Source: Candidatus Kapaibacterium sp.
GTDB taxonomy: Bacteria > Bacteroidota > Ignavibacteria > Kapaibacteriales > UBA4661
DNA length: 64,000 nucleotides
Direction of reading: 5' to 3'
NCBI GenBank assembly: GCA_025455065.1
Contig: JALONG010000021.1
Location: forward strand, 62,001 to 126,000
Below are positions 3,406 through 56,316 of the stretch, in pieces (the first letter of the stretch is position 1; each line of letters opens with the position of its first letter). The notes beneath the pieces are model-generated. The model made no database searches, was not told the DNA's origin, and saw only the letters and a program-made list of their open reading frames with translations. A program made the position numbers and the translations under genes.

Positions 3406-3629
3406 AATGTGGATAAAATAAACGTGAAGCATTGAGGATGTAAATAACTACCAAGTTTAGCGTAGAACCAAGCGTAATAGCATTCAAAAGAATTGTTCTT
3501 GAGCATTGTTGTACTCAATGCAAATCTACGGAAAAGAAATGCTCTAAAATAGTGAGGAGGGTGCAGCGATTTTTGAGGTTTTTGTCATTTTTTCGATTGT
3601 GGGTAGCAATCGAAGCGCTTTTACCATCA

Positions 3630-4259: not shown

Positions 4260-4404
4260 ACACACGCGCAAATAAAGGCAACTGTTGAAAAGGCAAATAA
4301 CTCTGCATCGCTAAACTACAATACAGACCTTACACTCCCAAAATATATTTTGACCAGACTGCAAATATCCCACAAACAACAGACGAACTGCTGTATAACA
4401 ACAT

Positions 4405-40100: not shown

Positions 40101-40417
40101 GCAGTATTAAGGTTAAGAGCGCCGATAACAAGAGTACCTGTACCATTCAGTGTAACACCAAATGCAGTCTCAAGTACAAGTTGTTTTACGCGGAATTGAA
40201 CAGCAGAGTTATTTATTGTTACAGCTGCTGTCGGGCGCAATGTAGCGACAGAATTGTCATTTAACCGACCGGGCCAGTAATTGGGAATCCCCCACTGAAG
40301 CGGGTCTTGCCAATCCACTGGTCCTGCGCCACCAACATATGTTTGCGCACTCAGGTTACCGACGAGTGTCAGCGCCCCAAGCAAGCAAGCAAACAGTATG
40401 GAAGAAAGTCTTTTCAT
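31169..40417 (-). CDS. Giant repetitive secreted surface protein (beta-helix-like repeats, IPT/TIG) with T9SS sorting tail
   Basis: The protein has 3082 residues. A signal peptide (MKRLSSILFACLLGALTLVGNLSAQ) is followed by ~2300 residues of Gly/Asn/Thr-rich sequence. It is built from at least twelve divergent units of ~100-150 residues, each with a motif like GxGFNGGxxPxxxFxxPFxGxL (for example ARFASPFIGQI, DNFASPFNGRL, ALFNSPFLGAI) and short strands typical of a parallel beta-helix. Residues ~2450-2990 hold about six IPT/TIG-like domains (RPAILSFTPTAQSSGNTI, RPVITSVNPPIVPPGSP). The last ~85 residues (VRVYPNPVVELVTV ... LPTGAYMVEITDGA) are a type A T9SS sorting domain. There is no cysteine-rich or catalytic region. 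The likely role is a long surface fibre or adhesin, by inference. A 1.4-kb non-coding region precedes it and a strong terminator follows. Confidence 0.9.
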   Translation of the reverse strand: MKRLSSILFACLLGALTLVGNLSAQTYVGGAGPVDWQDPLQWGIPNYWPGRLNDNSVATLRPTAAVTINNSAVQFRVKQLVLETAFGVTLNGTGTLVIGALNLNTASALTIGPGLNVVVDSIIDGAAGSTIVVLAGGTLTLRKGAGAPNVQIVEGGTVIAAGTVAQGSANSFLVIENGFNNGIFPTGLAGAFINNYPGEIQVNGNFVVNDVFNRPAVNPAGQNVAPLNLVSGTLTVTAGVTMTLNPTSPNSLIGNGVIQSQVGGIVALNVGFNAGITPGARFASPFIGQIQYTGANNNSTINSSMTLGVANGTTSQQGTMNIVGATSTITVPAGVTLTLNGSIANSLQGGAVTSLLTAAAGGTIVLGPGFNAGTVPARFATIAGTLRTEGALQWNVTGNIDAFSTTGTLDIGGNLALIGAGTFRFTPTAPNSLNARNGARISAQGLNTFFQFLPNANNGVIPGRVFANPWDGGFVVNSAFKLVDTLVMSASSGPWAFANHGSVLTIQANSELQLGRTLPGAVVGLPAMTTAGGPGIVYSSYFQGLSPTSVLRLGAGFNGGNAPSGDYNANGSTLAAATNVGVNPFLPLPFFNTTTSTIEGFNGRLILEGSINFNRDVRFGASGILDMKGGNYTVGANRALQLYNTGSNSVIGTGFIQGNSPTRRSWAPTNTNVAAQITAHGSIIEIGPGFNGAIVPAARFANPLQSNLCVSSAGNISIQGDLTLGIPGGLAYLNFNQSLNTDVTINNVLTRITTTSTTRLTINPNSSLRLNGTAVGTVFGATATRPGVSPVNTIQGTNITSRLIIGSGHGSNNNVYAITTNATFLASPFNGSLEFDSFAYLATDATVGVNSQLVLGGTLIMTEATIRNAPPYYTGAAPVGGGDRELNGITLTLLNQGANSITGLGDMQAGTGNTIVLGANANAGILPAARFQSPFYGTIATVGAMTLNGFLQMGAQRDGRVNGTNGFHVSSPFLALGGKLTVGAGSVLTVSNATANPFVVYNPLTFSFGERFFTVSTAGNLDAAVGGEIRLGDGFAAMYNRSYNGGNATGGLAFDPTFQTPTRSHIRGDNFASPFNGRLTLGFSIGTGTASGGRSRFFMTTGTLTIGQTGSLSLVSPLYVTAANLPILNTGSNGLPVLVLNNTGAGSLITSTTGSFIQSSVGTAALYFTAGNETTLTTGGTVLLGTGFNGGTIQGTQFGDQYGFSGRLRLPASGNLSLASNLTMLAASYIAAAAPGVKPLNYGILDLGGSSGNGVLTIADGITLSLGTTATAQFAGTGLALQGAGKIQGATNNSRLQFNGTHGAPNPGTGGAPNPQVVAARSMTVTAANITSPFVGRLVFNTSGTASVVGNIVLGAPGSANGILELSRLDGTAGVTNSPTFVPVGNNSSLTINNTSPIAAVLPGTGIISATTNFGSIILGPNALANIVPAAQLQNPFIGRLIVTTGSAAFTLGADLRLTNDPTSALRNTPGAQNGYLHAFSPININSGITLSVHNTSLEALRGTGPIQGADGNAVVRFLAESHTGTNAIGANGNVVPGAVFASPYNGRVSLESIAAGPGASTVGYHLYGGLTLGGVGTSNGFLNVSGATLYLAASTGGTVTGTEATLTINNTLPVEQTLPGGGAIYPKGETGGNANGRNSRWIFGTGSLAGILPLHKATTGTVAATGLAATTLPVTSHWNTIGVYGTIITPNSSVSVSNANYISFNNGGSLVIGGTGTASTTAEIVLNNAMRVGINSQHANALSGIGAIRATVTNAIVSFGPADAATFANGGIVPGANFAQNYLGSIIYQSNMTQTGLLRLGDGSGTTGRIIAAAAAGTSLYTVAAGATLDLRTLTGGIGNTSATVATGLLAGIDSTSRVILHPGFETAPNNIGTSARVNQSRALFNSPFLGAIFTSTGTTTLFGTAPVTLTIGNGTGARTTGALEMGGDFIVPETHTLVMNQVGANSFRRTVGSTGLLLANPTNAVGVATVRLGAEFNNSILPVNQLGSATGVPNAFGNPTVPTAAQTALLEINGGPFLTLSGASGSATTPANLTINQDLNFTNLGGGIHIPASSTLRVLQGFTAAPTVAPVSRGYIQGTTGFGTTQSVLAIGQGTRNAGNAISATTPVIGSIRAASVAGVPAFTGLLRFEGNGIINGVAVTIGTTSALDLPFLGGDLTVQANSTLNLLNQGANSYIFNPTVGNNAWIQGTGATSTINLGAGFNGGFINGTGFENGLQATLSLGGVNNPQSLGQPAGANSPAVPGGTLTLSNPLTIGNNGVFDFTGNGNDLILAANNMTVNGTIRNQSATQFFITNGTGELRLANVGSSSYFIGPSATTFTPATITNNGTPATFGIRALAAVAQVPALATGSTTLRMSIVNQQWNVTQVNNIVAGSSVTIAPSWLATQEGPGFNRTIAVTTAYPATPVSSPAATAITDPSFANYFRSAVTLTQSATALNGTPVLVTSQPRPAILSFTPTAQSSGNTIRIIGNRFVSGAAVSLGGVNVPAANITLRAGSSAGVADTLVVVVPSNAVSGDVVVTQVGGNSTLGTFTMLGAPAQQPTIFRVLPSPVPAGIGDVITTITGAAFGTNTPRVVAVGNGLTATLVPTASSQTSITVNVPAEVVRNPGTLQLTITSVERLPVSTNVTIIVAPAIALNSLSPSSTTGNLNPFAIEVRGSNFSAQSAFTLGTARLRVLGVTQNADGTLTARVEAPVGVQTGNLTVTNINGQTASLPFQVNALPRPVITSVNPPIVPPGSPDVVVTIRGRFLIPGASVTFSGQPLSGAVLMGDSVITVTIPAALLVNPDLAVLTVTNPDGQSIGYRLPISTGAPGAVSLDTRPGIGLTPSTTTATGSAFTITINGTGFAGAPRVFVGGQAVTVTSTSDTRLTATVPGTLNSTGLTPTVYAVQVVNPSGVSSNALMLTINPNSTTPAPAITRVTGVENNLTILGSGFVTGARVSLGNTPLTVVSVNAGQIVVGVPTTLAEGTYTLVVTNPDGQSATQLYTFRRSSVSSEPLAGVRVYPNPVVELVTVNANIERAAKVVITVTNSLGQRVIVEEHNAAAGFFSRNLNIGNLPTGAYMVEITDGARRSVEKIVKN

Positions 40418-41795: not shown

Positions 41796-44700
41796 TCATT
41801 GTTTCATCAAACGAACTGTTTGCCGCACAGTACCATCGCTCAAAACAGCCGTGTAGCTGCCTGTTGCCAATGTCCGCACATCCAATCGCGCTTGAACAGT
41901 ACCGTGAAGAGCAGGCTGCGAAAGGCGCATCACCACTTGCCCCAAGGCATTGAGTACAGTGATATTCACCTCGCGGCTCTCACCAAACCCCGTCGCTCTC
42001 AGCGTTGCCGCTTCGATTGCAGGATTCGGATACACGCCCAACGACAGTGATTCTTGTAATTCTGCACTCTCAGCCACAAACGCCGACGGTACAGCGCTCT
42101 GGAATGAAGTCAGGTTTGCCGAGCCGCGTTCAAATGCAATCAATGTGGTGATAAGCGTAAAGCCGGGGCGCATTGCCACACCATTCGGCGTAACGACACG
42201 AATCACACCCGAAGCCGCATTGGACGGCACTTCGACGGTAATTCTGCCCGAATGATGCACCGTGAACGGCACCGACGCACTGCCCATAAAGACCGCAGTT
42301 GCACCCGTGAAATATGTGCCGAAAATCGTTACAGTCTGCCCCACCGATGCCGAAGCAGGTGAGAACGACGTAATTGTCGGAAGCGGACGCAGCAGGTAGG
42401 TGAACCCTGCTTTGGTTGCCGTGCCGCTTGGCGTAGTAACGCTCACATTGCCCGATGCACCCGCGCCAACAACAGCCGTAATGCGGCTTGCATTCACCAC
42501 CGTAAATGACTGCGCTGCCGTGCCACCGAAGCTGACTTGCGTTGCTGCGGTGAAGTTGCTGCCGTTAATCGTTATCACCGTGCCGCTTGTAGCAATAGCG
42601 GGCGTGAAGGACGTAATCACCGGAGCCGGAGGCGGTGTCGGGAAAGTGAAATTGCTTGCCGATGTAGCCGTGCCACCATTTGCGACAACCGTTACTCTGC
42701 CTGTCGCGCCGGAACCAACAACCGCGCTAATCTGCGTCGGGGAATCCACCGTGTAGGATGCCACTGCCACGCCACCGATGCGCACTGCCGTAACACCGTT
42801 GAAACTTGTTCCCAAAATCGTTACCGTCGTCCCTGCGCCGCCTGTTGTGGGCGAAAATGCCGTGATGGTCGGCGGGGGGAAGTAGGTAAAGGTCTGGGTT
42901 GATGTGGTTACACCAGCCGGAGTATAAACACGAATCAAACCTGTTGCACCTCCATTCACCCGCACCACAAGGCGCGTTGAGGTCATGGATTGGATGATTG
43001 CCGTGCGCGGTCCGTCGGGCGCGTCACCGATGCGTACTGCCGTTGTGAACCAATCAGCGCCTTGGAAATTGAAGCCGTTAATCGTTACCACTGTGCCGTC
43101 CGGTCCTTCGGTCGGGCTGAAGGATGTGATAATTGGCGGATTCGGGCGACCTGCGCCCGGAGCGTAGTAAATGAACTTCGAGCGCGAACCAACGCCGCCC
43201 GGACCAATTACGCTGACAGCGCCTGTTTTACCGTTACCGACAACAGCCGTAATGCGGGTTGGCGAGACAACCGTGTAGGAGGCAGCAACCGTATCGCCAA
43301 ATTTTACGCCTGTTGCTCCCGTGAAATTGATACCGTCAATCGTGATAACGTCACCGTTTGTACCGCCGGAAAGCCAGAAACCGTAGATAACAGGCGCAGG
43401 GATGAAAGTGAATGTGCCTAAATCATCGGTACACTGCGGCGTTGTAACGCTGATGTTGCCTGTTTCAGGAGTGTTTGCCGCAGCAAATGCGCGAATTTCC
43501 GTGTCGGAAATGACCGTAAACGATGCCGCAGCGCGCCCGTTAAAACGAACAGCCGTTGCGCCCGTAAAGTTGCTTCCGGTGATAACGACTTGCGTTCCCG
43601 TGCTGGCGCTTGTAGGAGCAAATGCCGTGATAATCGGAGCCATGTAGCAGAAGCCATTGCGAACACCAACATTGCCCGGAAGCGTTTCCACGCGGACAGC
43701 GCCCGTTGCACCTGCGCCAACGGTTGCTTGGATTTGTGTTGCGGAAATCACCGTAAACGATGTCGCCGGAGTGCCGCCAAAATACACGCTGGTTGTTGTC
43801 CAATTCGTGCCGTTCAGCGCCGTTCCTTTGAAGTTCGCACCATTAATAGTGACAACTTGTCCCGCATTGCCGCTTGTGGGCGTGAAAGACGAAATCGTCG
43901 GACGCGGAACGTAGGTGAAACCGGGCAGAATACCCAAACCGTTTGCCGTAACAAGCGTTACATCACCCGTTGAGCCATTCTCCACAACCGCCGTTACAAC
44001 CGAATCCGACACAACGGTAAAACTTGAAGCCGGAGTGCCACCAAAGAGAACATTTTGTGCGCCTGTGAAGCCGAAACCGCTAACAGTAACGACTGTTCCC
44101 GTCGTGCCGACTTGCGGCGTAAAGCCAAGAATATTCGGCGATGAAGGCGGCGGTGTGTTCGGACTCATAAAATCAAGCATCATCACTCGCGGCGTAAGGT
44201 CTAAGACCGCCGAAGGATTCCCGCTTGCCAATGCCGCCGGAAGAATATTGAGCGTGAAAGAAACATCATCTGCGTTGGTGTGTGATACCGCCGTACCTGT
44301 GAAGTACATTTGGGCTGTTGTTGCGGAAGTTTTTTGTAGAACAAACGTTAAACCCGCAGGAACGCCCGTTGCCTGAAAATGGACACCGGAGGTAAGAATT
44401 CCGCTCCCCATAAGCGTATCGCCGCCAACGATAGTGAGCGTCCGAATTGTCGGGACTGTACCGTCATTCGCAGGTGCTTCCACGAAGGTTGTTCCCGAAT
44501 ACACAGCAGAATACGGCGGGAGAAAATCAATCGCCAAACGACGCGGCGTAAGACCGACCACATTTGCAGCCGAACCTACCGATAATGCTGCATTGAGGAA
44601 ACTCAAATTGATGTTCAAAGCATCGTTCACGTGTGCTGCCGCCGTGCCGGTGAAAGCAAGACGAGCAACAGTGGGCGAAACTTTGGTCACGGTTAGTGTC

Positions 44701-47700
44701 AGTCCCGCAGGAACGCCGGAAACGTTGAAGTGCGTTCCTTGAACAAACGTGGTTGCGGTTGTTGTAAAGGTTGTTCCTGTAAGAGTAATGGTGCGGGTTG
44801 TCGGGACTGTACCGTCATTGGCGATTGCTTCGGTGAAGAGCGTATCGGAATAGGTTGCAGTATAAGGGTCGAGGAAGTTTACGCGAAGCGGTCTGGGCGA
44901 AAGATTCGTAATGATGCCAACATTACCAACTTGAATTGCCGCAGGAAGGAACGTAAGAAGAGCATCGGTACTGTTTGCCGCAGTGTGCGCCGAAGCCGTG
45001 CCGCTAAATCCAAGTCGTACCTGTGTTGCAGAAAGGCGCGTAACCGTCAGCGTCAAGCCTGCGGGAACATTACTTGCGGTGAAGTGTGTACCATTTGTCA
45101 ATGCACCGGAAACAAAACTTGCTCCTGTCAAAGTAACTGTGCGCGTAGTGGTGATTTGCCCTGCATTAGCGGTGGTCTCGGTGAAGAGTGTGTCGCTGTA
45201 CAGCGCAAACGCGCCCTGTGGCGGGTCGTTGAAATCAACGGTTAATACTTTGGGAGACAAACCCAGAACTGCCGAAACATTACCACCGCTTACAGCAGCA
45301 TTGGTAAAGGTCAGTGTAAGCATTGCATCGTTGATATTGGCATGATTGGTCGCAACGCCTGTAAAGAACATCTGTGCAGTCGTCGGCGATATTGGTACAA
45401 GATTGAACGATAATCCGGGCGGAACATTCGTAATAGTGTAATCAATACCTGCTCTAAAAACATTCGCACTCAAAACAGCCTGCGACCATGATGTACCACC
45501 AAGTGTAATTGTATGCGTTGAAGTAGCAATAGTGCCGTTATTGGCGGCAGCTTCACGGAAAATGGTATTGTTGTACTCTGCCGCTCCGGCTATCGAACCA
45601 CCGCCACCGCAAACATTGATGCTGCGAATCCTATAATTCAAGCGGTCTGTAACGTACATCGTGCCGTTTGTATCAAGGGCAATATGCAAAGGATAGTTGA
45701 AGGAGGCTTGATTTGCAATCCCATCAACCCAACCTAACGACCCTGACCCTGCAACAGTCGAAACCATGCCGTCGGTACTGATTTTGCGGATATATCCGCC
45801 GACATAATCAACAACATAGATATTACCCGATGCATCCAACGTAAGCCCGACTGGTTCATTAAATTGTGCTTGTGCAGCATTGCCGTCATTATGCCCCGCA
45901 ATACCGGTCCCGGCAACGACAGACAATGTGCCATTTGTTGAGACTTTATAGACTCTATGCCTGTTGTAACCACCAACATAAACATTACCAACGGCATCAA
46001 CAGCAATGCCTGAAGCCACTACCGGTTCGTTATTCACTCTGCTCACGCCACCATCAGGCATAATTTTGTAAATCCAATTTTCGCCATCGGTGAAATAGAT
46101 TCTGCCGAAAGCATCCACAGCAATATCACTTCCCGATCTCATTGATACGCCGGGAATAGGGATATTGGTCACGGTGCCGTTAGGCGTAACCTTCTTAATT
46201 TCTGTCAGTTCAATGGTGTAGAGATTACCGGAAAAATCAATCGCCACGCCGTTAATGGAGCCAAACCCACCGTTTTGTCCGGCAATGGTAGTTACTACGC
46301 CACCCGGAGTAATTTTCCGCAATCTGCCCTCATCGCCGATATAGACATTACCTTGTTTATCGGTGGTTACAGAGTACGGTGAACCGAAGGACGCTTCTGT
46401 TCCGATACCGTCGTCGAGTCCGCTTGTGCCATTGCCTGCAAATGTTGTCACCTCGTTACAAACAATATCCCTAAAATCAATATGAAGATTTTTTGGGCTT
46501 AATCCCTGAACAGATGCAGGATTCACGCCATTCAAAGCAGCAGCAGTAAAGGCGAGAAGAAGTGTTGCATCATTCGCATTTTGATGGAGTTGTGCAACGC
46601 CTGTCAATGACAGTTCCGCCATTGTCGGTGTAAGGCGTGTTATCACTAGCGTGAGACCTTGCGGAACACCTATCGCTGTGAAATGCGTTCCTTGCACAAA
46701 TGTCCCCACATTTGTAAAAGAGACATCTGTGAGTGTCAATGTACGCTTAATGCTGATTGTTCCGTTGTTAATCGGCGCTTCGGTAAAGACCGAATCGGAA
46801 TACTGCGCTGCACCGACAATCGGTGTATCATCAAAATCAATAGCAAGCGATTTTGGTGTCAAACCCAGAACTGCTCCTGCATTGCCGGAAGCAAGTGCTG
46901 CATTGAGAAACGTCAGCGTAACATTTGCATCATTAGCGCTTTCGTGAGCCGCAGCAGTTCCCGTAAACCCAATTTCCGCCGAGGTCTGCGAAGCACGGGT
47001 AACGGTCATCGTCAAACCAGTCGGAACGCCGCTTGCGGTAAAGTGTACGCCTTGAACAAATGCACCCGTCGGCACAAAGGTATCAAAAGCAAGGGTGATA
47101 GTGCGTTTTGTGGTGATTGTACCATTGTTTGCAGTAGCTTCCGGGAATGTTGTGCCGGAATAGATTGCTCTTGGGTTGTCCAAGAAGGTAATAGCGAGGT
47201 TCGTGCCGTTTAGTCCTGTAACACTTGCCGCCGGAGTACCGTTTAATGCGGCATCGGTGAAAGTCAGTTGGACATTGGCTACATTGTTTGAGGCTTGGTG
47301 CTGGAGAGCATTGCCTGTGAAGCTGATCTGAACTTGTGAATCGGACAATTTTGTCATCACAAGAGTCAAACCTGACGGCACGTTTGCTGCCAAGAAGTGT
47401 GCGCCTGGAGTCAGTGTTGCTCCATTCGACACAGAAGAAGTCCACGATGCGTCGCTTAATGTGATAATATTCGTGGAAAGCACACCACCATTGTTCGCAG
47501 CACTCTCATTAAATCCTGTACCGGAAATGGCAGCAGAAGGTATCAAAACTTGAATCGGCGAAATTCGACGAATGCGGTGATTGCCAGTATCAACCACATA
47601 GACATTCCCCTGTGAATCCACAGCTACAGAATACGGCTGGTTGAACAAAGCATTGGTACCATCTTGATAACCAAGGACAGAACCGGCAATCGTTGTTACG

Positions 47701-48614
47701 TCACCATTTGGCATAATCTTACGAATTCGGTTATTACCTCGGTCTGCAACATAAACGGTACCACCAAAATCTACATCAAGCCCGGTAGGTAGTGAAAACC
47801 TTGCCGATGTTCCGTTACCATCCCGATTGCCATTAATACCCCCGGCATGTGTTGTTACCGACCCCGAAGGCGTGATTTTTCTTATACAATTGTTTTCATA
47901 ATCTGCAACGTAAATAAATCCACTTCCATCAATAGCAATACCAACCGGTCTATTAAACGATGCAGACACACTATGACCATTTGTAAAACCGGAAGCACCA
48001 CTCCCTGCCAATGTTGTAACTTCTCCTAAGGGCGTTATCTTTCTAATCCGATTATTGAAGTCATCGGCAACATAAACGTTGCCTAGTGCATCCACAGCAA
48101 CATCGCTTGGACGATTAAATCTGGCAGACGTTCCGATACCATCGGCAAATCCGGGTACACCGTACGTCCCAGCAAAAGTGGTTACATCACCCGCAGGGGT
48201 TATCTTTCTAATAAGTTGATTCATCCTGTCAGCAACATAGATGTTACCTGTTGTAGGATCAATAGCTAATCCATTTGGATATTGAAACCTAACATTTAAT
48301 CCATTCCCATCCTGATAACCCGGGAAACCCGAACCAGCTAGAGTTTGAACATTTGCCCCGCTTGCAACAGAGCGAATTCTACAATTCATCCAATCACCGA
48401 TATATAATACACCCGAATTGTTAGTGGTAATACCTGTTGGGAAATTAAATTGTGCCAGTGCACCTATCCCATCTACCGACCCTTGCACACCACCTGCTAT
48501 TGTTGTAACCTGATAACTTTGAGCATTACCTTGGACGAAATCCAAAGCTATCAACAGCATGATGACAAATAACCTAGCAATCCGCAATCGTACTAATTGC
48601 ATACTTATTGCCAT
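41796..48614 (-). CDS. Giant secreted NHL-repeat, ~115-aa-module and IPT/TIG protein with T9SS sorting tail
   Basis: The protein has 2272 residues. A signal peptide (ending FVQGNAQ) is followed by NHL repeats ~35-360 (units such as GNVYVADDFNNRIRKITPLG). Next come three ~115-residue modules (~360-727), a second NHL block (~727-1007) and four more modules (~1007-1487). Eight IPT/TIG domains (~1487-2170; for example PTITAFSPTTGGAGTTVTI) precede a type A T9SS sorting domain (~2190-2272; VYPNPAIEAATL ... LATGSYTAVLSDG). The ~115-residue module is shared with the protein at 1-3405. The ATG at 48614 is chosen over a TTG at 48620 because GAGGAG then lies about nine bases upstream. The regulator gene 48869-49609 and the Kelch kinase gene lie directly upstream on the same strand, which makes this protein a candidate target. 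Its ligand is unknown. Confidence 0.9.
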   Translation of the reverse strand: MAISMQLVRLRIARLFVIMLLIALDFVQGNAQSYQVTTIAGGVQGSVDGIGALAQFNFPTGITTNNSGVLYIGDWMNCRIRSVASGANVQTLAGSGFPGYQDGNGLNVRFQYPNGLAIDPTTGNIYVADRMNQLIRKITPAGDVTTFAGTYGVPGFADGIGTSARFNRPSDVAVDALGNVYVADDFNNRIRKITPLGEVTTLAGSGASGFTNGHSVSASFNRPVGIAIDGSGFIYVADYENNCIRKITPSGSVTTHAGGINGNRDGNGTSARFSLPTGLDVDFGGTVYVADRGNNRIRKIMPNGDVTTIAGSVLGYQDGTNALFNQPYSVAVDSQGNVYVVDTGNHRIRRISPIQVLIPSAAISGTGFNESAANNGGVLSTNIITLSDASWTSSVSNGATLTPGAHFLAANVPSGLTLVMTKLSDSQVQISFTGNALQHQASNNVANVQLTFTDAALNGTPAASVTGLNGTNLAITFLDNPRAIYSGTTFPEATANNGTITTKRTITLAFDTFVPTGAFVQGVHFTASGVPTGLTMTVTRASQTSAEIGFTGTAAAHESANDANVTLTFLNAALASGNAGAVLGLTPKSLAIDFDDTPIVGAAQYSDSVFTEAPINNGTISIKRTLTLTDVSFTNVGTFVQGTHFTAIGVPQGLTLVITRLTPTMAELSLTGVAQLHQNANDATLLLAFTAAALNGVNPASVQGLSPKNLHIDFRDIVCNEVTTFAGNGTSGLDDGIGTEASFGSPYSVTTDKQGNVYIGDEGRLRKITPGGVVTTIAGQNGGFGSINGVAIDFSGNLYTIELTEIKKVTPNGTVTNIPIPGVSMRSGSDIAVDAFGRIYFTDGENWIYKIMPDGGVSRVNNEPVVASGIAVDAVGNVYVGGYNRHRVYKVSTNGTLSVVAGTGIAGHNDGNAAQAQFNEPVGLTLDASGNIYVVDYVGGYIRKISTDGMVSTVAGSGSLGWVDGIANQASFNYPLHIALDTNGTMYVTDRLNYRIRSINVCGGGGSIAGAAEYNNTIFREAAANNGTIATSTHTITLGGTSWSQAVLSANVFRAGIDYTITNVPPGLSFNLVPISPTTAQMFFTGVATNHANINDAMLTLTFTNAAVSGGNVSAVLGLSPKVLTVDFNDPPQGAFALYSDTLFTETTANAGQITTTRTVTLTGASFVSGALTNGTHFTASNVPAGLTLTVTRLSATQVRLGFSGTASAHTAANSTDALLTFLPAAIQVGNVGIITNLSPRPLRVNFLDPYTATYSDTLFTEAIANDGTVPTTRTITLTGTTFTTTATTFVQGTHFNVSGVPAGLTLTVTKVSPTVARLAFTGTAAAHVNDALNINLSFLNAALSVGSAANVVGLTPRRLAIDFLPPYSAVYSGTTFVEAPANDGTVPTIRTLTIVGGDTLMGSGILTSGVHFQATGVPAGLTFVLQKTSATTAQMYFTGTAVSHTNADDVSFTLNILPAALASGNPSAVLDLTPRVMMLDFMSPNTPPPSSPNILGFTPQVGTTGTVVTVSGFGFTGAQNVLFGGTPASSFTVVSDSVVTAVVENGSTGDVTLVTANGLGILPGFTYVPRPTISSFTPTSGNAGQVVTINGANFKGTALNGTNWTTTSVYFGGTPATSFTVISATQIQATVGAGATGAVRVETLPGNVGVRNGFCYMAPIITAFAPTSASTGTQVVITGSNFTGATAVRFNGRAAASFTVISDTEIRAFAAANTPETGNISVTTPQCTDDLGTFTFIPAPVIYGFWLSGGTNGDVITIDGINFTGATGVKFGDTVAASYTVVSPTRITAVVGNGKTGAVSVIGPGGVGSRSKFIYYAPGAGRPNPPIITSFSPTEGPDGTVVTINGFNFQGADWFTTAVRIGDAPDGPRTAIIQSMTSTRLVVRVNGGATGLIRVYTPAGVTTSTQTFTYFPPPTITAFSPTTGGAGTTVTILGTSFNGVTAVRIGGVAVASYTVDSPTQISAVVGSGATGRVTVVANGGTATSASNFTFPTPPPAPVITSFTPAIATSGTVITINGSNFTAATQVSFGGTAAQSFTVVNASRITAVVGAGASGNVSVTTPSGTATKAGFTYLLRPLPTITSFSPASASVGQTVTIFGTYFTGATAVFMGSASVPFTVHHSGRITVEVPSNAASGVIRVVTPNGVAMRPGFTLITTLIAFERGSANLTSFQSAVPSAFVAESAELQESLSLGVYPNPAIEAATLRATGFGESREVNITVLNALGQVVMRLSQPALHGTVQARLDVRTLATGSYTAVLSDGTVRQTVRLMKQ

Positions 48615-48720
48615 AATCAATAACTCCTCTAAACATTTTGGAAAGTAACGTATTTGAAATTAAAAATTTCACTTCAAAACTATTTCTAATTATCCAAACA
48701 AAAAACACTCTGCCCCCCAA

Positions 48721-48760
48721 AAAGCGCTGAACGGGACATATAAAGCGCTGAGCGGGACAT
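48721..48760. promoter_or_regulatory. 19-bp direct repeat with 21-bp period upstream of the NHL/IPT gene
   Basis: aaagcgctgaacgggacat (48721-48739) and aaagcgctgagcgggacat (48742-48760) differ by one base and start 21 bases apart, two helical turns. LytTR regulators are known to bind paired direct repeats with about this spacing. The site lies ~110-150 bases upstream of the giant gene's start and next to a LytTR regulator gene, so it may be its operator. This is inference from position and geometry, as the repeat does not obviously match a published LytTR consensus. Confidence 0.45.
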
Positions 48761-48791
48761 TTCTCTCAAAAATGAGAGAGAAATGCCCCGC
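48752..48791. other. Long hairpin overlapping the direct repeat
   Basis: Arms gcgggacatttctctc (48752-48767) and gagagaaatgccccgc (48776-48791) pair with one mismatch around an eight-base loop. The left arm overlaps the second direct repeat. On the minus strand there is no T run, so it is not a typical terminator of the regulator gene. It could be a 3' stabilising structure or attenuator. Confidence 0.5.
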
Positions 48792-48868
48792 TTTTGAAGG
48801 TGTAAATGAAAAGAATTTGCTTGAAGGAGGTCGCTGTTTTTTGCAATAATCGTTTGTTACATCAAGAC

Positions 48869-49609
48869 TTACGCACCTAAAATGCCTAATTTTCTACTCA
48901 TAATTGCAACAAACGTAGGTTTCATGCGCTTTGACACGGAGAAACGCTCCCCATTTTTCATAATCGCAACTGCTCCTCGACCATTTGGTTCCCAACCTAT
49001 ACAGTAGGCACAATTGATAACCGTTCCGCGTTCAATCTCTATTCCGCCAACTTTTTGGAGGGATTCCGCACATTCTGACAGAGTGTTTTGTATGAGATAG
49101 GAAGTGTTATCTTCCAATGCTACTTTCACATAGCCGTTAAAGGCTTCGCAATACACAATACTCTGCGTTTCAATAGCAACTACGCCCCCTTCTCGCATTC
49201 GTGCAGAAAGATAATTCGATGTTATTTGCCCATTACTACCAGCATATCTTGCTTTGAACACCCTTTCGACGGCATCTTTCAAATCTTGCGGCTCCACCGG
49301 CTTCAAAATATAATCAATAGCTTCATACCGAAATGCTTTTGCGCCAAATTCCGGATAGCTGGTAACAAAAATCACCTCAAAATCAATCTCCTCGAAAGCA
49401 TCCAAAACATCAAATCCCGTCCCGCCAATCAATTCAATGTCCAGAAAGACAATATCGGGATTCTGCTCGTTAATAACAGCAATGGCTGTATCTACAGAAA
49501 ACGCCTCGCCGACAATAGCAATGCGCTCAGGGAAACTTTCCCCAATTTTCCGCTTGAGAATTGAACGTTGCGCGGTTTCATCATCAACCACAACTGCTCG
49601 TAAGACCAT
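48869..49609 (-). CDS. LytTR-family response regulator of the Kelch kinase system
   Basis: This 246-residue protein has a receiver domain (~1-120) with D9/D10 (VVDDE), phospho-acceptor D57 (VFLDIEL) and the lysine in YILKPVEP. A LytTR DNA-binding domain follows (~140-246; IVYCEAFNGYVKVALED, IERGTVINCAYC). The domain is somewhat divergent: the usual FxRxHRSxxVN motif reads IEIERGTVINCAYCIG. The start at 49609 has GAGGT upstream. The Kelch kinase gene ends 17 bases upstream on the same strand, so they are one operon and a two-component pair. Downstream lie a direct repeat and the NHL/IPT surface-protein gene. Confidence 0.92.
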   Translation of the reverse strand: MVLRAVVVDDETAQRSILKRKIGESFPERIAIVGEAFSVDTAIAVINEQNPDIVFLDIELIGGTGFDVLDAFEEIDFEVIFVTSYPEFGAKAFRYEAIDYILKPVEPQDLKDAVERVFKARYAGSNGQITSNYLSARMREGGVVAIETQSIVYCEAFNGYVKVALEDNTSYLIQNTLSECAESLQKVGGIEIERGTVINCAYCIGWEPNGRGAVAIMKNGERFSVSKRMKPTFVAIMSRKLGILGA

Positions 49610-49626
49610 TTCAGTACCTCCCTAGA

Positions 49627-51729
49627 TTATTCGTGATGTTGCTGTACAAAAAGGGGAATGTGGAGAATAACTCTTGTCCCAACGGGAACACCATTATCAT
49701 CGTGCAAATCAACATACTGAACATTCTGTATTTGCAAATGGAGCTTTGAAAGAAGCGACAAACGCTCCTCATTAACGCGGGTAGAACGTGATAAACCTTG
49801 GTAGAAAGTGCTTTTTGAATACACCGCTTTTGCTTTGACACGCCCGACACCGTTATCTTCGACCACACACAAAAGAAATTCCTTCCCTTCAATCTGCGTG
49901 ATGGAAAAATCAACCAGCAACCTTCCCTGCCTTCTTCTGTCAGGATTCATTGCATTAAAATCCTGCAAAAGCCCCAGACCGTATTTGACCGAGTTCTCAA
50001 TGTAAGGCTGAATCAGCATAGAAGGGATGTACAACTGAATTTGGCTTGTCGAAAGGCTATGCGTGATGTCGTAATCAAACGTGTAATCCATTCTCAGTTG
50101 TTCAAGCGCAATATACACTTTGAGAAATTCAATTGCATCAAGAATTTTTACCGTACTGTGGTCGCTATGCTCCAAGACGATTCTGAACAGTTTCGCCAGA
50201 ATGCGGATGTAGTAAGAAGCCTGTTCCACTTTATTGTCCATCACTAAGGATTCCACCGCCGCAAGGGAATTATAGACAAAGTGCGGCTTCATTTGTAATT
50301 GCAAGGTTTGTAAGCGCAAGGTTGCAATTTGTGCATCCAGCGATTTTTTTTCCTGCTCCGTGCGCACATACTCTTGCTCACGCTGAAGTTGTACGCGCAG
50401 TGTCCGTACCAGATACAGCAATGCTAAAACGAAGCAGCCCACAGTACCGGCGGTGATGGAGAGGACAATCGGAAACGTTACCAGAGGCGAATAGCGGCTA
50501 AAAAAAAGTATTTCGTTGGCATCAACGTTGGAAGCAACGGGAATAATTTCCCGTAATATTTCTACGGTCGTATTTGGCGAATTATCACCGTTTTTACCAC
50601 CCAAAATCACCAAACATTTCTCCGCCAACGTACCGGATTCCGAAAAAACAGGCAACGCCAGCACGAGCGGCTCTTTGCGCGGGGAAGCAAGCACGGGACC
50701 TTGTGTATGCTTTTGTGACAGCATATCTATCCATACCGTTGCCGAATCGCACTGCCCGTGGTTATTAACACCGCCAACAACAAGCAGTGTATCATTATTC
50801 CATTGTCCGACACCAAAAGCTGTTCGCTCAAGAGCAATGCCGGAAACAGGGCGATATCCGGTAAAATTCTCAATAAACACATTCGGCGCTGAACTCAGCG
50901 AATCAGTAGGCTTATGGTTGCCCCAAACGACGGTGCGCTGGTCATAAAGACGTAAGTACCGAAGCGCGTCTAAGCGTGGAAGAACAGCATCAGGGCTTTC
51001 CCAAGACTTTTTTTTCTCATTGTACGCATAGATAAGGCATTTTCCATTGGGATTCCCGCACTCCGAAGCGATAATCACGGGTTTAGGAAATTGAAAAACC
51101 GTCGAGACAAAACAAATTGCATTCAAAACAGGCGAAGGTAATGGAGCAACCATCGTACTCTGACCTGTCTTGATATTCAGGACTTCACAGGAAGCAATAG
51201 CCGCACCGTCGGGATTGTTGCCTCCGCAAATAAGTATTTCTTCATTGCTGATAAATGTAGCAAGCGGCTTAATGCGGGGAACACGTATTTTCCCGATTTG
51301 CCGCCACGAGCGGTAAAATCGGTCATAATACTCACAAATGTCCGTTGGTTTATTGCCACTGCTGACACCGCCAATAACAACGAGGTTTGAATCACCGTTT
51401 TGCACCAGTGCCGCCTCTGCATGAGGAACGTTCAGTGGCAATGCACTCTGAACCGTATGCTGCTTGACATCAATAACTTCGCAGTGTTGTATCGGCACGG
51501 CGCGACCGAGCGAATCGTGATGATAACCGCCAATAACAAGCACTTGATGAGCATTGATAATTGCTACATTTCCGCGAAGATGATGAAATTTCATTTGCCC
51601 GACAGCCTCCCATCGGCGCTGTTGCTGGAGTAAGTCTTGCTGTGCATTACCACAGAGATAAGCACTGTGTAGAACCATTGTAGCGACAATGAACACAATG
51701 CTTCTGGAGAATAAGGTGTTGTTGGGCAT
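49627..51729 (-). CDS. Kelch-propeller LytS-type sensor histidine kinase
   Basis: The protein has 700 residues. A signal peptide (~1-29) is followed by a periplasmic Kelch beta-propeller (~40-395) with repeats such as VLVIGGYHHDSLGR, LVVIGGVSSGN and ILICGGNNPDG. A membrane helix (~415-440, LSITAGTVGCFVLALLYLV) and a coiled linker rich in Glu/Gln lead to a His_kinase domain. Its phospho-acceptor His is at ~482 (MKPHFVYNSLAAVE), the N-box is IENSVKYGL (~575) and the G-box is VEDNGVGR (~620). The propeller should sense an extracytoplasmic ligand and signal to the LytTR regulator 17 bases downstream. The usual input domain of this kinase class in Bacteroidota is a Reg_prop propeller, and the Kelch version is less common. 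Two adjacent genes encode similar Kelch sensors without the kinase. Confidence 0.9.
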   Translation of the reverse strand: MPNNTLFSRSIVFIVATMVLHSAYLCGNAQQDLLQQQRRWEAVGQMKFHHLRGNVAIINAHQVLVIGGYHHDSLGRAVPIQHCEVIDVKQHTVQSALPLNVPHAEAALVQNGDSNLVVIGGVSSGNKPTDICEYYDRFYRSWRQIGKIRVPRIKPLATFISNEEILICGGNNPDGAAIASCEVLNIKTGQSTMVAPLPSPVLNAICFVSTVFQFPKPVIIASECGNPNGKCLIYAYNEKKKSWESPDAVLPRLDALRYLRLYDQRTVVWGNHKPTDSLSSAPNVFIENFTGYRPVSGIALERTAFGVGQWNNDTLLVVGGVNNHGQCDSATVWIDMLSQKHTQGPVLASPRKEPLVLALPVFSESGTLAEKCLVILGGKNGDNSPNTTVEILREIIPVASNVDANEILFFSRYSPLVTFPIVLSITAGTVGCFVLALLYLVRTLRVQLQREQEYVRTEQEKKSLDAQIATLRLQTLQLQMKPHFVYNSLAAVESLVMDNKVEQASYYIRILAKLFRIVLEHSDHSTVKILDAIEFLKVYIALEQLRMDYTFDYDITHSLSTSQIQLYIPSMLIQPYIENSVKYGLGLLQDFNAMNPDRRRQGRLLVDFSITQIEGKEFLLCVVEDNGVGRVKAKAVYSKSTFYQGLSRSTRVNEERLSLLSKLHLQIQNVQYVDLHDDNGVPVGTRVILHIPLFVQQHHE

Positions 51730-51766
51730 TGCAATAATCCGATTGGGAAAGAAAAGCGCTTGAAAC

Positions 51767-53158
51767 TTAGTTTCGGAGTATGTTTCGTGATTTTCTTCGT
51801 ATCTGTACGACTTGGTACAAGAGATATATCAACGAAAGTATCAGCGCAATAATAAATGCTGAAAGGATACCGATAAACTGCGCCGACGAAAAAATCTTTT
51901 TCCAGCGCAACACGGAAATTTCTTCGCTTGGAGTTTGGACAAACGTTGGGTTATTTGCCTCTAATATCTCAATGCTTCCGAGAGTTACGTCATTAGCGCC
52001 AAGTCCACCCAACACCACAGCACAGGCGCTCACCTGTTTGCCATGTTTGTCATAACGGGGAAATGAATGGAGAGCCATAGTACGCCGCGCCTCTCGCAAA
52101 GGCGGACCATATGAACACATACCCGTTCTTCTGTCGAACCATTCGGTTTGGTTATATACTTCATAATTATCAGTACCGCCGACAATCAACGATATTTCAC
52201 TATTCCACGACTGTACACCGCAATTCGTACGCGCAATCAATGAATTCCCCGCGACAACCATCCCTTGCTCTGTTTCAAGGCAAATTGCTTTTAAGGTATT
52301 ATTTCTTGGGTAATTGTTTGTTTGAAAATAATACGATCTGCCACCGCCAACAGAAAGCGTAGCTTGATTGTCCAATAACGTGCATACACCAAATCCATGC
52401 GACGCTATCGGCATTTCACCTTCATATTTCCATTGATTTGACAAGTTGTCAAACGAGTACACTCCTGAAAGCCTGTATGCACCGCCGCCGCCGGTACGCC
52501 CACCGAGAAACAAGTGTTTGCCTTTTTTCCAAACCTTACTTTCTACGGTAATCCCGCCAGAAATCTTTACGGGAAAATCTTGTACAACTTTACTTTTACC
52601 TGTACGGATATTAAAAATTTCTGCCTCAGCAGTTATCGCACCATAGTTTACCTCAGCATATCCACCAACAACAAGGATTTTGTCAGAATCGAGAAGTGCA
52701 ACACTATGATCATGGCGACCTATTTGTAACGAGCCAATTTCTTTCCATGTACGAGATTTTCTATCATACATTTCACACACTCGAGTTGTGGTGCTGTCAG
52801 TATTTAAGCCGCTTACAACAATAATATTTGAATCCGCAGTTTGTATATAAGCAGTCTTGGCACACGGCACATTCAAACTTCCGGTTTTATATACTTGGCG
52901 TTTTTTCACATCAATGATTTCACAAGTTTGAAGAACGCTGCCCCTGCGACGACTGGACTGCTCCCCTAATTGCTCTCCAAACCCACCAAACACCAATACC
53001 TTTTCATCTCCAATAACCGCCGACCGAAAAAGAAAACGCTTTTCCAGTAAATGCCCCATAATCTTCCATTGCAATTCTTCAGAACGAAGCGGCAATGAAC
53101 ACAGCAGCAGCATAGATATTACTGCTATCGGCAGCCATTTAGATGTGCAGTGCGACAT
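51767..53158 (-). CDS. Kinase-less Kelch membrane receptor (paralogue 1)
   Basis: This 463-residue protein has a signal peptide (~1-25, ending LPLRS) and a Kelch propeller (~30-405; VLVFGGFGEQ, IIVVSGLNTDS, ILVVGGYAEVN). A membrane helix (~428-452, FIGILSAFIIALILSLIYLLY) is followed by only ~10 basic residues. The propeller resembles the sensor part of the kinase at 49627-51729 (shared CEVIDVK/CEIIDVK, LNVPxA, YDRxxRSW/YDRKSRTW motifs), but the kinase part is absent. The gene is intact and ends in an in-frame stop, so it is not a simple frameshift remnant. It is the first of two tandem copies (unit 1520 bases). It lies 37 bases upstream of the Kelch kinase gene, so it is probably in the same operon. 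The function may be ligand capture or modulation of the kinase, by inference. Confidence 0.8.
   Translation of the reverse strand: MSHCTSKWLPIAVISMLLLCSLPLRSEELQWKIMGHLLEKRFLFRSAVIGDEKVLVFGGFGEQLGEQSSRRRGSVLQTCEIIDVKKRQVYKTGSLNVPCAKTAYIQTADSNIIVVSGLNTDSTTTRVCEMYDRKSRTWKEIGSLQIGRHDHSVALLDSDKILVVGGYAEVNYGAITAEAEIFNIRTGKSKVVQDFPVKISGGITVESKVWKKGKHLFLGGRTGGGGAYRLSGVYSFDNLSNQWKYEGEMPIASHGFGVCTLLDNQATLSVGGGRSYYFQTNNYPRNNTLKAICLETEQGMVVAGNSLIARTNCGVQSWNSEISLIVGGTDNYEVYNQTEWFDRRTGMCSYGPPLREARRTMALHSFPRYDKHGKQVSACAVVLGGLGANDVTLGSIEILEANNPTFVQTPSEEISVLRWKKIFSSAQFIGILSAFIIALILSLIYLLYQVVQIRRKSRNILRN
51784..51937 (-). repeat. 154-bp near-identical 3' segment of the tandem Kelch genes (copy 1)
   Basis: It matches 53304-53457 with two differences in 154 bases. 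It encodes the transmembrane anchor and the segment before it. The copies lie exactly 1520 bases apart. Confidence 0.95.
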
Positions 53159-53271
53159 AGCATTTACTTGTAAGAGGATACGTTAATAATTGACAAAACC
53201 GTACCACAAAGCCTCTGTAACAAGGCATAAAATCTTGTTTTTTCGGTGCTTTGACTTCAGCTCCGCTTCGG

Positions 53272-54678
53272 TCAAATACCGTTACTCAAAGGCAATGATG
53301 TTTTTCGTGATTTTCTTCGTATCTGTATGACTTGGTACAAGAGATATATCAACGAAAGTATCAGCGCAATAATAAATGCTGAAAGGATACCGATAAACTG
53401 CGCTGACGAAAAAATCTTTTTCCAGCGCAACACGGAAATTTCTTCGCTTGGAGTTTGAATAAACGTCGGATTACTTGCTTCCAATATCTCAATGCTTCCG
53501 AGATCTATGTCATTAGCTCCAATCCCGCCTATAACCACAATGCGGACACCCGATTGCTTGCCAAATTTATCATAATTGTAGAATGAGTACGCCTCCATTT
53601 TTCTACGTGCTTCATTCAAAGCGGGTCCGACGCAACCCAGTCCCGCTCTTGTGTCAAACCACTCCGTTTGATAAAAAGTATCATAGCCGTTCCCACCTCC
53701 TATAATCAAACATACCTCTTCATTCCAAGGTTGCACTTTTGCTTGATAACGCCCTATGAGCATTTTCCCAATGCTCAAAAATCCATCTTCTGTTTCAATA
53801 CTTATATCTCTTGAAATAAAATGTTCTCTAGAATTCGTAATCGCATAATTCAATTTTCCTCTACCGCCAACACATACCATTGCATTGCTCCTTGGAAACA
53901 AACCAATGCCCATAGCATGAACAGCAGTTGGCATTTCTCCTTCATATTTCCATTGGTAGGAGATAATATCAAAAGAATAAATACGGGAAAGCATATGAGT
54001 TCCCTGACCATCTGTACGCCCACTCATGAGGAGTTGCTGCTTAGGCTTCCAAATATTGCTTTGAAATGCGATTCCATCTACTATTGTACATGGAAAATTA
54101 TTAACAAATGTACTTTGTCCGGTACGAATATCAAAAATTTCCGCCTCTGCTGTTATCGCACCATAGTTTGCCTCAGCATATCCGCCAACAACGAGAATTT
54201 TATCCGAACCAAGTAGCAAAACAATATGATCATGGCGGCCTATTTGCAGTGAACCAATTTTTTTCCATGTATGAGATTTTCTGTCATACAGTTCACACAA
54301 TCGAGTCGTGGTACTGTCAGTATTTAATCCACTTACAACAATAATATTGGAGTCTGGAGTTTGTACAAAAGCGGTCATAGCACGTGGTACATTCAAACTT
54401 CCGGTTTTATACACTTGGCGTTTTTTTACATCAACGATTTCGCAAGTAGAAAGAACACTACCTCTACGGCGGTGCAACTGCTCCCCTAATTGACCAGAAA
54501 AACCACCAAAAACCAATATCTTCTCATCTCCAATCACTGCTGACTGAAAAAGAAAGCGCTTTTCCAACAAATGCCCCATAATCTTCCATTGCAATTCTTC
54601 AGAACGAAGCGGCAATGAACTCAACAAAAAAATATTTATTGCCGCTATCAGCAGCCATTCAAGTATGTGGCGCAGCAT
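53272..54678 (-). CDS. Kinase-less Kelch membrane receptor (paralogue 2)
   Basis: This 468-residue tandem paralogue of 51767-53158 has the same layout: signal peptide (ending LPLRS), Kelch propeller (~30-400; ILVFGGFSGQ, IIVVSGLNTDS, VCLIIGGGNGY) and one C-terminal membrane helix (FIGILSAFIIALILSLIYLLY). A basic cytoplasmic tail of ~15 residues follows. The ATG at 54678 places the signal peptide directly at the start; the open frame upstream to 54816 has no such feature. The middle of the propeller has diverged much more than the two ends. It probably arose by tandem duplication. No kinase domain and no partner domain is visible. Confidence 0.8.
   Translation of the reverse strand: MLRHILEWLLIAAINIFLLSSLPLRSEELQWKIMGHLLEKRFLFQSAVIGDEKILVFGGFSGQLGEQLHRRRGSVLSTCEIVDVKKRQVYKTGSLNVPRAMTAFVQTPDSNIIVVSGLNTDSTTTRLCELYDRKSHTWKKIGSLQIGRHDHIVLLLGSDKILVVGGYAEANYGAITAEAEIFDIRTGQSTFVNNFPCTIVDGIAFQSNIWKPKQQLLMSGRTDGQGTHMLSRIYSFDIISYQWKYEGEMPTAVHAMGIGLFPRSNAMVCVGGRGKLNYAITNSREHFISRDISIETEDGFLSIGKMLIGRYQAKVQPWNEEVCLIIGGGNGYDTFYQTEWFDTRAGLGCVGPALNEARRKMEAYSFYNYDKFGKQSGVRIVVIGGIGANDIDLGSIEILEASNPTFIQTPSEEISVLRWKKIFSSAQFIGILSAFIIALILSLIYLLYQVIQIRRKSRKTSLPLSNGI
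53304..53457 (-). repeat. 154-bp near-identical 3' segment of the tandem Kelch genes (copy 2)
   Basis: Partner of 51784-51937. The 5' ends of the genes also share an identical 51-base stretch (53050-53100 and 54570-54620), again 1520 bases apart. Confidence 0.95.
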
Positions 54679-54816
54679 AATGTTTGCCCATAAAAAGAAA
54701 AAGACTTCAATAATTGACAAAACCGTACCACAAAGCCCCTGCAACAAGGTACAAAACCTTGCTTTTTGGAATCTTGTGATACGGTCTGTTTCATTTCTTC
54801 TATTTGGCGCAATCAA

Positions 54817-56316
54817 TTAATACGCCACCGCAAACAACACACGCTGCTTCGAGGGTTTGCCCGAATAAATACACTTCCCGTCTTCTTCAGCAGAATCAAA
54901 CGGGATGCAGCGAATCGTGGCTTTGGTTTCTTCTTTGATTTTCAGTTCCGTTTCGGTTGTGCCGTCCCAATGCGCCAGCGCAAAGCCGCCTTTTTGCTCC
55001 ATCATCGCTTTGAAGTCATCGTAAGAATCTACGGTGCGTGTGTTTGCTGTGCGGAAATTCAGTGCTTTGTTGTACATATTCTGTTGGATTTCTTCCAAGA
55101 GCCCATGAACAGTGTTTTCGATGCCATCAATCTGTGCAACGGTCTTTGCACCATCTTCACCACGCTCTTTGTCGCGGCGCGAAACCTCAATCGTACCGTT
55201 TTGCAAATCTCGCTCACCCAGCGCCAAGCGCACCGGAACGCCGCGCATTTCCCAATCCGCAAACTTAAAGCCCGGTGTGAGACTGTCGCGCAAATCGTAC
55301 TTCACCGATATTCCCTTGCTGCGAAGCGCTTTTTGAATTTCTTCTACCTTTACAGAAATTGCCTTTAGCTGTTCCTCGTTTTTGTAAATCGGCACAATGA
55401 CCGCTTGAATCGGCGCAAGGCGCGGCGGCAGCACCAAGCCGTTATCGTCGGAATGCGCCATAATGAGCGCTCCCATAAGGCGCGTACTTACGCCCCATGA
55501 CGTTCCCCAGACGTATTCGAGCTTGTTTTCTTTATTGGAGAACTGCACATCAAACGCCTTCGCAAAATTCTGTCCCAAAAAGTGCGACGTTCCCGCTTGA
55601 AGCGCCTTCCCGTCTTGCATCATCGCTTCGATGCAAAGGGTTTCTTCGGCTCCGGCAAAGCGCTCATTCGCTGTTTTTGCGCCTTTGATAACAGGTACAG
55701 CCATAACATTTTCAGCAAATTCTGCATAAACTTCCAACATTTGTTTGGTTTCTGCCATTGCCTCCTCAGCACTTGCGTGGGCGGTATGCCCTTCTTGCCA
55801 GAGAAATTCCGTTGTGCGCAAAAAGAGGCGCGTCCGCATTTCCCAGCGCACGACATTTGCCCATTGGTTGATAAGAAGCGGCAAATCACGGTAGGACTGA
55901 ATCCAATTTTTGTACGTGTTCCAAATCACGGCTTCCGATGTCGGACGCACGATGAGTTCTTCTTCCAAGCGGGATTCGGGATCTACGATAAGCGCACCTT
56001 TTTTATTCGGGTCAGTTTTTAAGCGGTAATGCGTTACCACCGCACATTCTTTTGCAAACCCTTCGGCATGACCTTCTTCTTTTTCCAAAAAACTTTTCGG
56101 AACAAAGAGCGGGAAATATGCGTTAGTGTGTCCGGTGTCTTTGAACATTTTGTCCAGCGATTGCTGCATTTTTTCCCAAATCGAATAGCCGTAAGGCTTA
56201 ATGACCATGCAACCGCGCACGGCGGAGTTTTCTGCTAAATCGGCGCGTTTCACAAGGTCGTTGTACCATTCGGAGTAGTTTTCACTGCGTTTGGGAAGGG
56301 CGGCTTTGTTGCTCAT
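54817..56316 (-). CDS. proS: Prolyl-tRNA synthetase, archaeal/eukaryote-like short form
   Basis: This 499-residue class II aminoacyl-tRNA synthetase charges tRNA-Pro. Visible landmarks are RPTSEAVIW, the motif-2 region ([21 protein letters not shown]), the EGHTAH loop and the motif-3 region ([16 protein letters not shown]). An anticodon-binding domain follows (~290-400). The C-terminal zinc-type domain ends in the tyrosine typical of this subclass (VLFAVAY), and there is no inserted editing domain as in the E. coli type. The ATG at 56316 fits the family. It is a housekeeping gene with no evident operon partner. Confidence 0.95.

Follow-up and report, generated by a model that had tools for sequence, protein, structure and literature searches.

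The window analysed here, a stretch of 64,000 nucleotides from Candidatus Kapaibacterium sp. (genome G000), carries on its minus strand a block of five genes encoding two kinase-less Kelch membrane proteins (KelTM1 and KelTM2), a Kelch-LytS histidine kinase, a LytTR response regulator and a giant surface protein with a sorting domain of the type IX secretion system (T9SS). Judged from sequence, the block probably represents a two-component module whose regulator would activate the giant gene, and other genes bearing the same element, through a tandem repeat between regulator and giant; this reading is given a probability of about 0.65. A preliminary description of the same DNA had placed the five genes identically, all on the minus strand, and its assignment of Kelch, LytS kinase, LytTR, NHL/TIG and T9SS domains agrees with Pfam calls made on the window proteins at curated cut-offs. 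It had also proposed the giant as the natural target of the regulator and named the interval 48621-48868; to this proposal can now be added a conserved tandem element of 21-bp period at 48721-48760, inside that interval.

The unit of the element reads ATGTCCCG[C/T]TCAGCGCTTT and is repeated perfectly at a period of 21 bp. No other copy with three or fewer mismatches was found in the 64-kb window (expected 0.04). The same tandem precedes the orthologue of the giant in G007, the metagenome-assembled genome Kapabacteriales bacterium Clear-D13, which is reported to come from a Dolichospermum enrichment culture (PMC7714850). In a blastn comparison of the regulator-giant intervals of G000 and G007, the element was the sole significant match on the same strand (71 nt, 87%, E 5e-21); the next same-strand match had E 0.19, and a match to the other strand fell in the inverted repeat (E 1e-4). 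Across 61 genomes, a pattern search allowing up to two mismatches gave any match in 10, with mismatch-free units in G000 and G007 only, and a reversed-pattern control gave none. A sequence-only model built from ten tandem sites returned ten strong matches in the same 61 genomes (E 4.8e-24 to 1.7e-18; next best 0.003). These ten are the model's own training set, strict search filters applied and, as in the orthologue searches below, part of the candidates went unscored in some or all genomes, so this search bears on the absence of further strong sites and on the restriction of the element to 4 of the 61 genomes, all of one genus. The genus set comprises eight genomes, G000 and its seven congeners G001-G007, and the sites are distributed over G000 (three), G007 (four), G001 (one) and G002 (two). 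They align without gaps at period 21, and the orientation of element to gene is the same at all ten; being partly related by descent, they do not count as ten independent events. In the published layout of LytTR operators, two 9-bp repeats are reported to lie mostly 12 bp apart (PMC6193735), which gives a 21-bp period, as in the 19-nt units of the window.

The spacing between element and promoter likewise fits an operator. In flavobacteria the sigma-A -7 box is reported to be TAnnTTTG (PMC9723704), and 8 of the 10 sites are followed by this motif within 80 nt; shuffled sequences gave 1.16 on average, and 8 was not reached in any of 500 shuffles. At seven of the ten it starts 38 nt after the second unit (39 nt in the window), so that the element appears to hold a mostly fixed position upstream of a promoter, as expected of a LytTR operator. 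With the box placed at -12 to -5 (PMC9723704), the promoter-near 9-mer centres at about -60, as is reported for AgrA sites (PMC4227749), and it is this position that suggests activation as the direction of control.

The genes behind the ten sites all encode proteins of propeller, TIG or Ig families, four of them being cut by contig ends. NHL proteins follow six sites (the window, G007:C46 twice, G007:C109, G001:C166 and G002:C511), a DUF5122-propeller and TIG protein of ~1500 aa follows the site at G000:C88, and BNR/sortilin-type proteins with CUB, cohesin and dockerin domains follow those at G007:C83 and G002:C399; at G000:C118 only TIG is seen before the contig end cuts the gene after 332 aa. 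Por_Secre_tail was found in all six element-bearing genes whose C-terminus lies in the assembly, twice below the curated cut-off, and chance is a poor explanation because sorting-domain genes are estimated to make up a few percent of the genes in a genome of the size of G000. In the window giant this domain scores 32.9 bits against a cut-off of 27 (residues 2196-2268), together with NHL at 164 bits and eight TIG stretches; its ~125-residue repeats, spotted by eye, carry no Pfam name. The translocon protein SprA is encoded at G000:C34 (TIGR04189, 805.9 bits) and is present in all eight genus genomes. Two further giant open reading frames (ORFs) of the window stand without the tandem element, one of 3082 aa with TIG and sorting domains (31169-40417) and one of 2570 aa with leucine-rich repeats (LRR), TIG and a sub-cut-off sorting-domain match (4405-12117).

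Table 1. Coordinates of the gene block and of the putative control region in the window
Feature	Position	Strand	Description
KelTM1	53272-54678	minus	signal-peptide-like N-terminus, Kelch propeller, one C-terminal transmembrane segment (TM), short basic tail, no kinase domain
KelTM2	51767-53158	minus	KelTM1 paralogue (67% identity), Kelch propeller by prediction (pLDDT 69.6)
Kelch-LytS histidine kinase	49627-51729	minus	Kelch propeller, TM ~421-441, helical linker, PF06580, H483
LytTR response regulator	48869-49609	minus	Response_reg 6-115 with D57, LytTR 143-236
Inverted repeat	48751-48792	minus	17-bp arms, 8-nt loop in fold, overlaps tandem unit 1
Tandem unit 1	48742-48760	minus	19 nt, putative LytTR-type operator
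Tandem unit 2	48721-48739	minus	19 nt, 21 bp from unit 1
TAGTTTTG	48675-48682	minus	match to Bacteroidota -7 box TAnnTTTG, 39 nt after unit 2
Giant surface protein	41796-48614	minus	2272 aa: NHL propellers, ~125-residue repeats, TIG/IPT, type IX sorting domain

The residues that a phosphorelay would require are present in both partners. The N-terminal half of the kinase consists of Kelch repeats by Pfam, and its PF06580 His_kinase domain (residues 472-548) scores 62.7 bits against a cut-off of 25.2, with H483, N579 and a DNGVGR box supplying the H, N and G boxes. The regulator matches Response_reg (59.5 bits) and LytTR (42.7 bits), with the expected D57, T83 and K103 in place. A single hydrophobic segment follows each Kelch domain, at about residue 428 in the KelTMs and 421 in the kinase. 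In NCBIfam, the best matches of the regulator are BtsR and LytR, both far under cut-off, and it is not PorX (27 bits against a cut-off of 300). A structure model of the kinase from window sequences alone was poor (mean pLDDT, predicted local distance difference test, of 53.7) and was not used for claims.

Gaps along the block measure 113, 37, 17 and 254 bp in transcription order. The spacings of 37 and 17 bases upstream of the kinase and the regulator are exactly as first described, and the receptor-kinase-regulator operon that had been proposed from them is backed further by G007, in which the junctions among the KelTM, kinase and LytTR genes each overlap by 4 bp. From this spacing and these overlaps, KelTM1, KelTM2, the kinase and the regulator would form one transcription unit; the giant would lie outside the operon proper because its own promoter-like region precedes it. 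The giant starts with ATG at the 48614 end, the ORF opening 6 nt earlier with TTG. Upstream of the block, at 54817-56316, lies a gene that we take, from its own sequence, to encode prolyl-tRNA synthetase. A tandem 21-bp repeat was not found before KelTM1 or between KelTM1 and KelTM2 (window 53150-54900), and autoregulation of the operon was rejected on that ground.

A search of other genomes for this gene order, as the preliminary description had suggested, recovered the order in G007 and a partial repetition of it at G000:C63, and these recurrences place it beyond chance; on the negative side, it was kept in only one of the seven congeners. At G007:C46, five KelTM genes, a kinase (48% identity), a LytTR regulator (66%) and a giant of 3498 aa follow one another in the same direction, and a second giant comes after the first. 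The G007 giant is 70% identical to that of the window over residues 871-2273 and 56% over 16-782, and the genes upstream of the operon are unlike those in the window. The second module of G000, at C63, has a KelTM, a kinase (38%) and a LytTR regulator (41%). It is followed by a convergent ORF of 2265 aa with LRR and a TIG-type domain, in which a sorting domain was not found at E 0.001, and preceded by a divergent NHL ORF that is cut by the contig end; for T9SS export both are candidates only. Among the eight genus genomes, the full-length Kelch-LytS kinase occurs twice in G000 and once in G007. No such kinase was found in G001, G002, G003, G005 or G006, where matches covering the Kelch part fall in other proteins; G004 encodes an isolated KelTM, located where its contig ends and close to the prolyl-tRNA synthetase gene that is also found in the window. 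Outside the genus, no match to Kelch and kinase together was found at E 1e-30 among 395 genomes of the phylum, with two candidates scored per genome. A contig scan with two short peptide patterns, in which records near the window's own genome were possibly left out, returned the G007 contig and a kinase-domain-only match in Galbibacter. Kelch parts related to the kinase sensor are also found in conserved non-kinase proteins (L002/L003 at G000:C80 and C79, L039, L040, L042, L043), among which a ~720-aa Kelch protein and a ~2900-aa Kelch giant stand side by side in G007 and G004. The Kelch giant of G000:C79 has a sorting domain over cut-off, and none was found in the Kelch protein of G000:C80 (L002:202-2364).

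KelTM1 and KelTM2 have Kelch repeats by Pfam and no kinase family, and just a short basic tail follows the membrane segment. An AlphaFold model of KelTM2 from three window sequences, of medium confidence, was compared by Foldseek; each of the 50 matches listed is either a Kelch domain or a designed SAKe propeller (E 2.6e-13 to 1.6e-11, TM-score by target 0.55-0.73). Identity between the two paralogues is 84% at residues 51-150, 26-54% at 201-350 and 96% at 401-450, which comprises stalk and membrane segment, and synonymous differences are 0.11 at 401-450 compared with 0.69-0.90 in the middle. That synonymous sites, too, differ so little at the ends suggests that, besides selection, recombination has homogenised them or an exchange took place recently. 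Five KelTM pairs were computed in G007: one is alike (98% and 0.17 at 401-450, 52% at 201-300), three are less clear (86-94%, 0.34-0.43) and one is unlike (64%, 0.76). Between genomes, stalk identity is 42-60% in the two pairs computed. The family thus seems to join shared stalks to differing central blades, as would be expected of co-receptors for different ligands; a role as decoys or inhibitors of the kinase is equally possible. Sensor-only Kelch genes number one at C63, two in the window and five in G007, with one kinase each, and a varying number of receptors around a single kinase would be an unusual bacterial way to broaden the input of one pathway.

What the computations show directly is the order of the genes, the conserved residues, the element with its period and promoter spacing, and the class of target gene. 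That phosphate is transferred, which regulator binds, that control is by activation and not repression, and what the KelTMs do are inferred. The Kelch propellers would be positioned beyond the inner membrane, with the periplasm as the most likely site, and would detect a ligand, whose signal would pass through the stalk to the LytS kinase. Phosphate would then move from H483 of the kinase to D57 of the regulator, and the phosphorylated regulator, bound head to tail as a dimer on the tandem repeat (48721-48760), would activate the sigma-A-type promoter of the giant (-7 box 48675-48682), like AgrA at its promoters. The genes with the same element at G000:C88 and G000:C118 would be co-activated. 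The role of the kinase-less Kelch proteins would probably be that of co-receptors or modulators associating with the kinase: their similar ends would serve assembly, and their divergent central blades would accommodate different ligands. A wider proposal, which we put forward as tentative and somewhat doubtful, is that this Kelch-kinase system is devoted to giant adhesins of propeller type, with a variable number of kinase-less receptors (one, two or five), alike in their membrane stalks and diversified in their central blades, feeding several ligands into a single LytS kinase that switches the giant-protein regulon via the 21-bp tandem operator. If this were true, the one-kinase/many-Kelch system would be a bacterial counterpart of multi-receptor, single-kinase signalling.

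Several observations weigh against control of the giant by the window regulator. The kinase locus is present in just two of the eight genus genomes, G000 included. Three of the ten sites lie in G001 and G002, in whose assemblies no orthologue of the kinase, a KelTM or the regulator was found, and a G005 homologue, 68% identical to the C-terminal half of the giant, has neither the site nor a Kelch kinase that could be found. In these three respects the preliminary proposal of the giant as target is weakened. The promoter box of G001:C166 lies at 26 nt, i.e. 12 nt nearer, and G007:C83 and G002:C399 lack an exact TAnnTTTG, with G002:C399 showing one mismatch at the same place by eye. The 9-mer of the element, in its best frames CCCGCTCAG, AGCGCTTTT and ACCGTTCAG, shows no significant resemblance to the LytTR repeats in the literature (shuffle p of 0.19-0.27 in the best frame); it is for this reason not decisive on the regulator, and the likeness was dropped as proof.

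Since the sites of G001 and G002 occur without the regulator in the assemblies, another LytTR protein presumably can use the site. The element could accordingly be the operator of another of the ~31 LytTR regulators of G000 (31 LytTR matches), with the Kelch kinase and regulator merely neighbouring the giant; we consider this alternative unlikely, and it survives better than the others. In a comparison of 101 LytTR proteins (29 from G000, 25 from G001, 22 from G002, 10 of the 36 matches of G007 and 15 of the 41 from G003-G006), the only protein close to the window regulator is its G007 counterpart (66%); the best identities reach 32% in G001 and 35% in G002. Reciprocal best hits in each of G001, G002 and G007 were obtained for four G000 LytTR proteins, those of L155 (C93), L179 (C21), L004 (C63:3455) and L178 (C56); for the C93 and C21 proteins none was found among the 15 proteins of the other congeners, a distribution close to that of the element. 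The phyletic pattern, which these two fit nearly, singles out no one regulator among those compared. Adjacency speaks for the window regulator, as the element lies directly downstream of it in both regulator-bearing species and exact units occur only in those two genomes. The C21 protein, moreover, has its own, different 21-bp array adjoining, and related LytTR genes carry arrays beside themselves.

Three other regulators lie near 21-bp arrays, namely those of G007:C44, G000:C95 and the C63 module, and the regulators of C95 and C44 are relatives of the window's. Eight such arrays fall within an 18-kb stretch of G007:C44. The C63 array lies before the operon, in the divergent region ahead of the NHL ORF, with TAGTTTTG ~40 nt beyond; it is a different 21-bp tandem repeat of 2.5 copies (L001 13569-13620). 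At 30 G000 LytTR loci, 6 noncoding arrays with a period of 20-22 lie in 228 kb, compared with 2 in 360 kb of 18 random 20-kb stretches (p 0.043), arrays at least half within ORFs of 150 aa or more being left out (6 of 8 in the random stretches and one at G000:C95). This enrichment of arrays near LytTR genes, with the window's own array among the six, is weak and lends correspondingly weak support; a lag-21 excess at LytTR loci, chosen partly for holding sites, was not used as evidence. Another family of 21-bp arrays, of AATGACCGAGACCCCCATTCT type, lies near three LytTR genes, at G000:C95 (L048 9715-9784), C21 (L179 3969-4039) and C61 (L180 4414-4485). The stretch at G007:C44 (L049, 26000-44000) also encodes, at ~1100-8400, at least 12 small cysteine-rich peptides with a pinensin-like leader (NF038180 over cut-off in all four tested), in a cluster adjoining a LytTR gene at 8410-9657 whose product is 49% identical to the window regulator. 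Its eight arrays have 2.5-3.5 copies of a 21-bp repeat, and the seven array ends displayed each stand just before a TAGTTTTG box. This could possibly be a LytTR-controlled locus with several precursors of a ribosomally synthesized and post-translationally modified peptide (RiPP).

Regulation of the giant by the neighbouring two-component module would also fall if the genes had come together by chance in a genome where giant T9SS proteins abound, without the giant being a target. G000 does have 138 sorting-domain matches over cut-off (among 150 scored of 184 candidates), the window holds another sorting-domain giant, and the G005 homologue occurs without kinase or element. Against this improbable alternative, G007 has the same order with an orthologous giant despite different genes upstream of the operon, and the element is shared between the G000 and G007 intervals. 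Least probable of all is that the element is a tract of site-specific recombination or gene conversion, or a leader-RNA structure common to giant genes: conservation does extend over almost all of the 21-bp unit, further than 9 bp of contact would demand, and a CTCTC/GAGAG inverted repeat directly precedes the tandem units at 8 of the 10 sites (its core in 7 of 9 outside the window), being degenerate in G002:C399 and extended to 17-bp arms in the window, whose copy folds strongly as RNA (z -6.2), but the element lies upstream of the -7 box at a mostly fixed distance and so probably stays outside the transcript of that promoter, the window hairpin lacks a T-run after it, the hairpin is absent in G000:C88, four sites lie between divergent genes (G000:C118, G007:C109, G002:C399 and G002:C511), and the uniform orientation and fixed 21-bp period suit an activator site. 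The hairpin at 48751-48792 was likewise not adopted as a terminator, since it lacks a following T-run and shares bases with the first tandem unit.

Activation of the giant by the Kelch-kinase module, the reading preferred here, would combine parts that are already of known kinds, namely a LytS/LytTR system, a Kelch propeller and T9SS cargo. The author of the preliminary description had known of no such described system, and in the titles and abstract openings listed by the literature searches no description was found of a Kelch-sensor LytS kinase, of sensor-only paralogues or of a LytTR-type regulon of giant T9SS proteins. Giant T9SS surface proteins must rank among the costliest bacterial products, and to our knowledge little is known about how bacteria time their production. 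With a defined element, a candidate regulator and ten targets spread over four genomes, this question becomes testable. As a speculation, the giants might serve attachment to cyanobacteria, given the Dolichospermum culture reported as the source of G007 (PMC7714850).

The module resembles the LytS/LytTR systems of BtsR, LytR and AgrA in its PF06580 kinase, its regulator of receiver and LytTR domains, the adjacency of the two genes and the tandem direct repeats of 21-bp period upstream of a target promoter; it differs in that a Kelch propeller with one TM would serve as sensor and that kinase-less sensor paralogues lie in the same unit. Bacteroidota LytS-type kinases with propeller sensors, such as a 1050-aa protein at G005:C39 with Reg_prop, Y_Y_Y and His_kinase domains, share the general plan, but the match is confined to the kinase part, at 28-44% identity in the domains listed. 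In the LytTR regulatory systems (LRS) HdrRM and BrsRM, a LytTR protein and membrane proteins are likewise encoded in one operon and 9-12-9 repeats are used, and these systems are described as a LytTR regulator with a membrane inhibitor protein, distinct from two-component systems (PMC6193735). The window locus falls outside the LRS in that it includes a kinase and a receiver domain; a further difference is that no tandem repeat turned up ahead of its operon. PorXY-SigP is a two-component control of type IX secretion and thus also ties such a system to the T9SS; the regulator of the window differs from PorX, and its proposed target is a cargo rather than the secretion machine.

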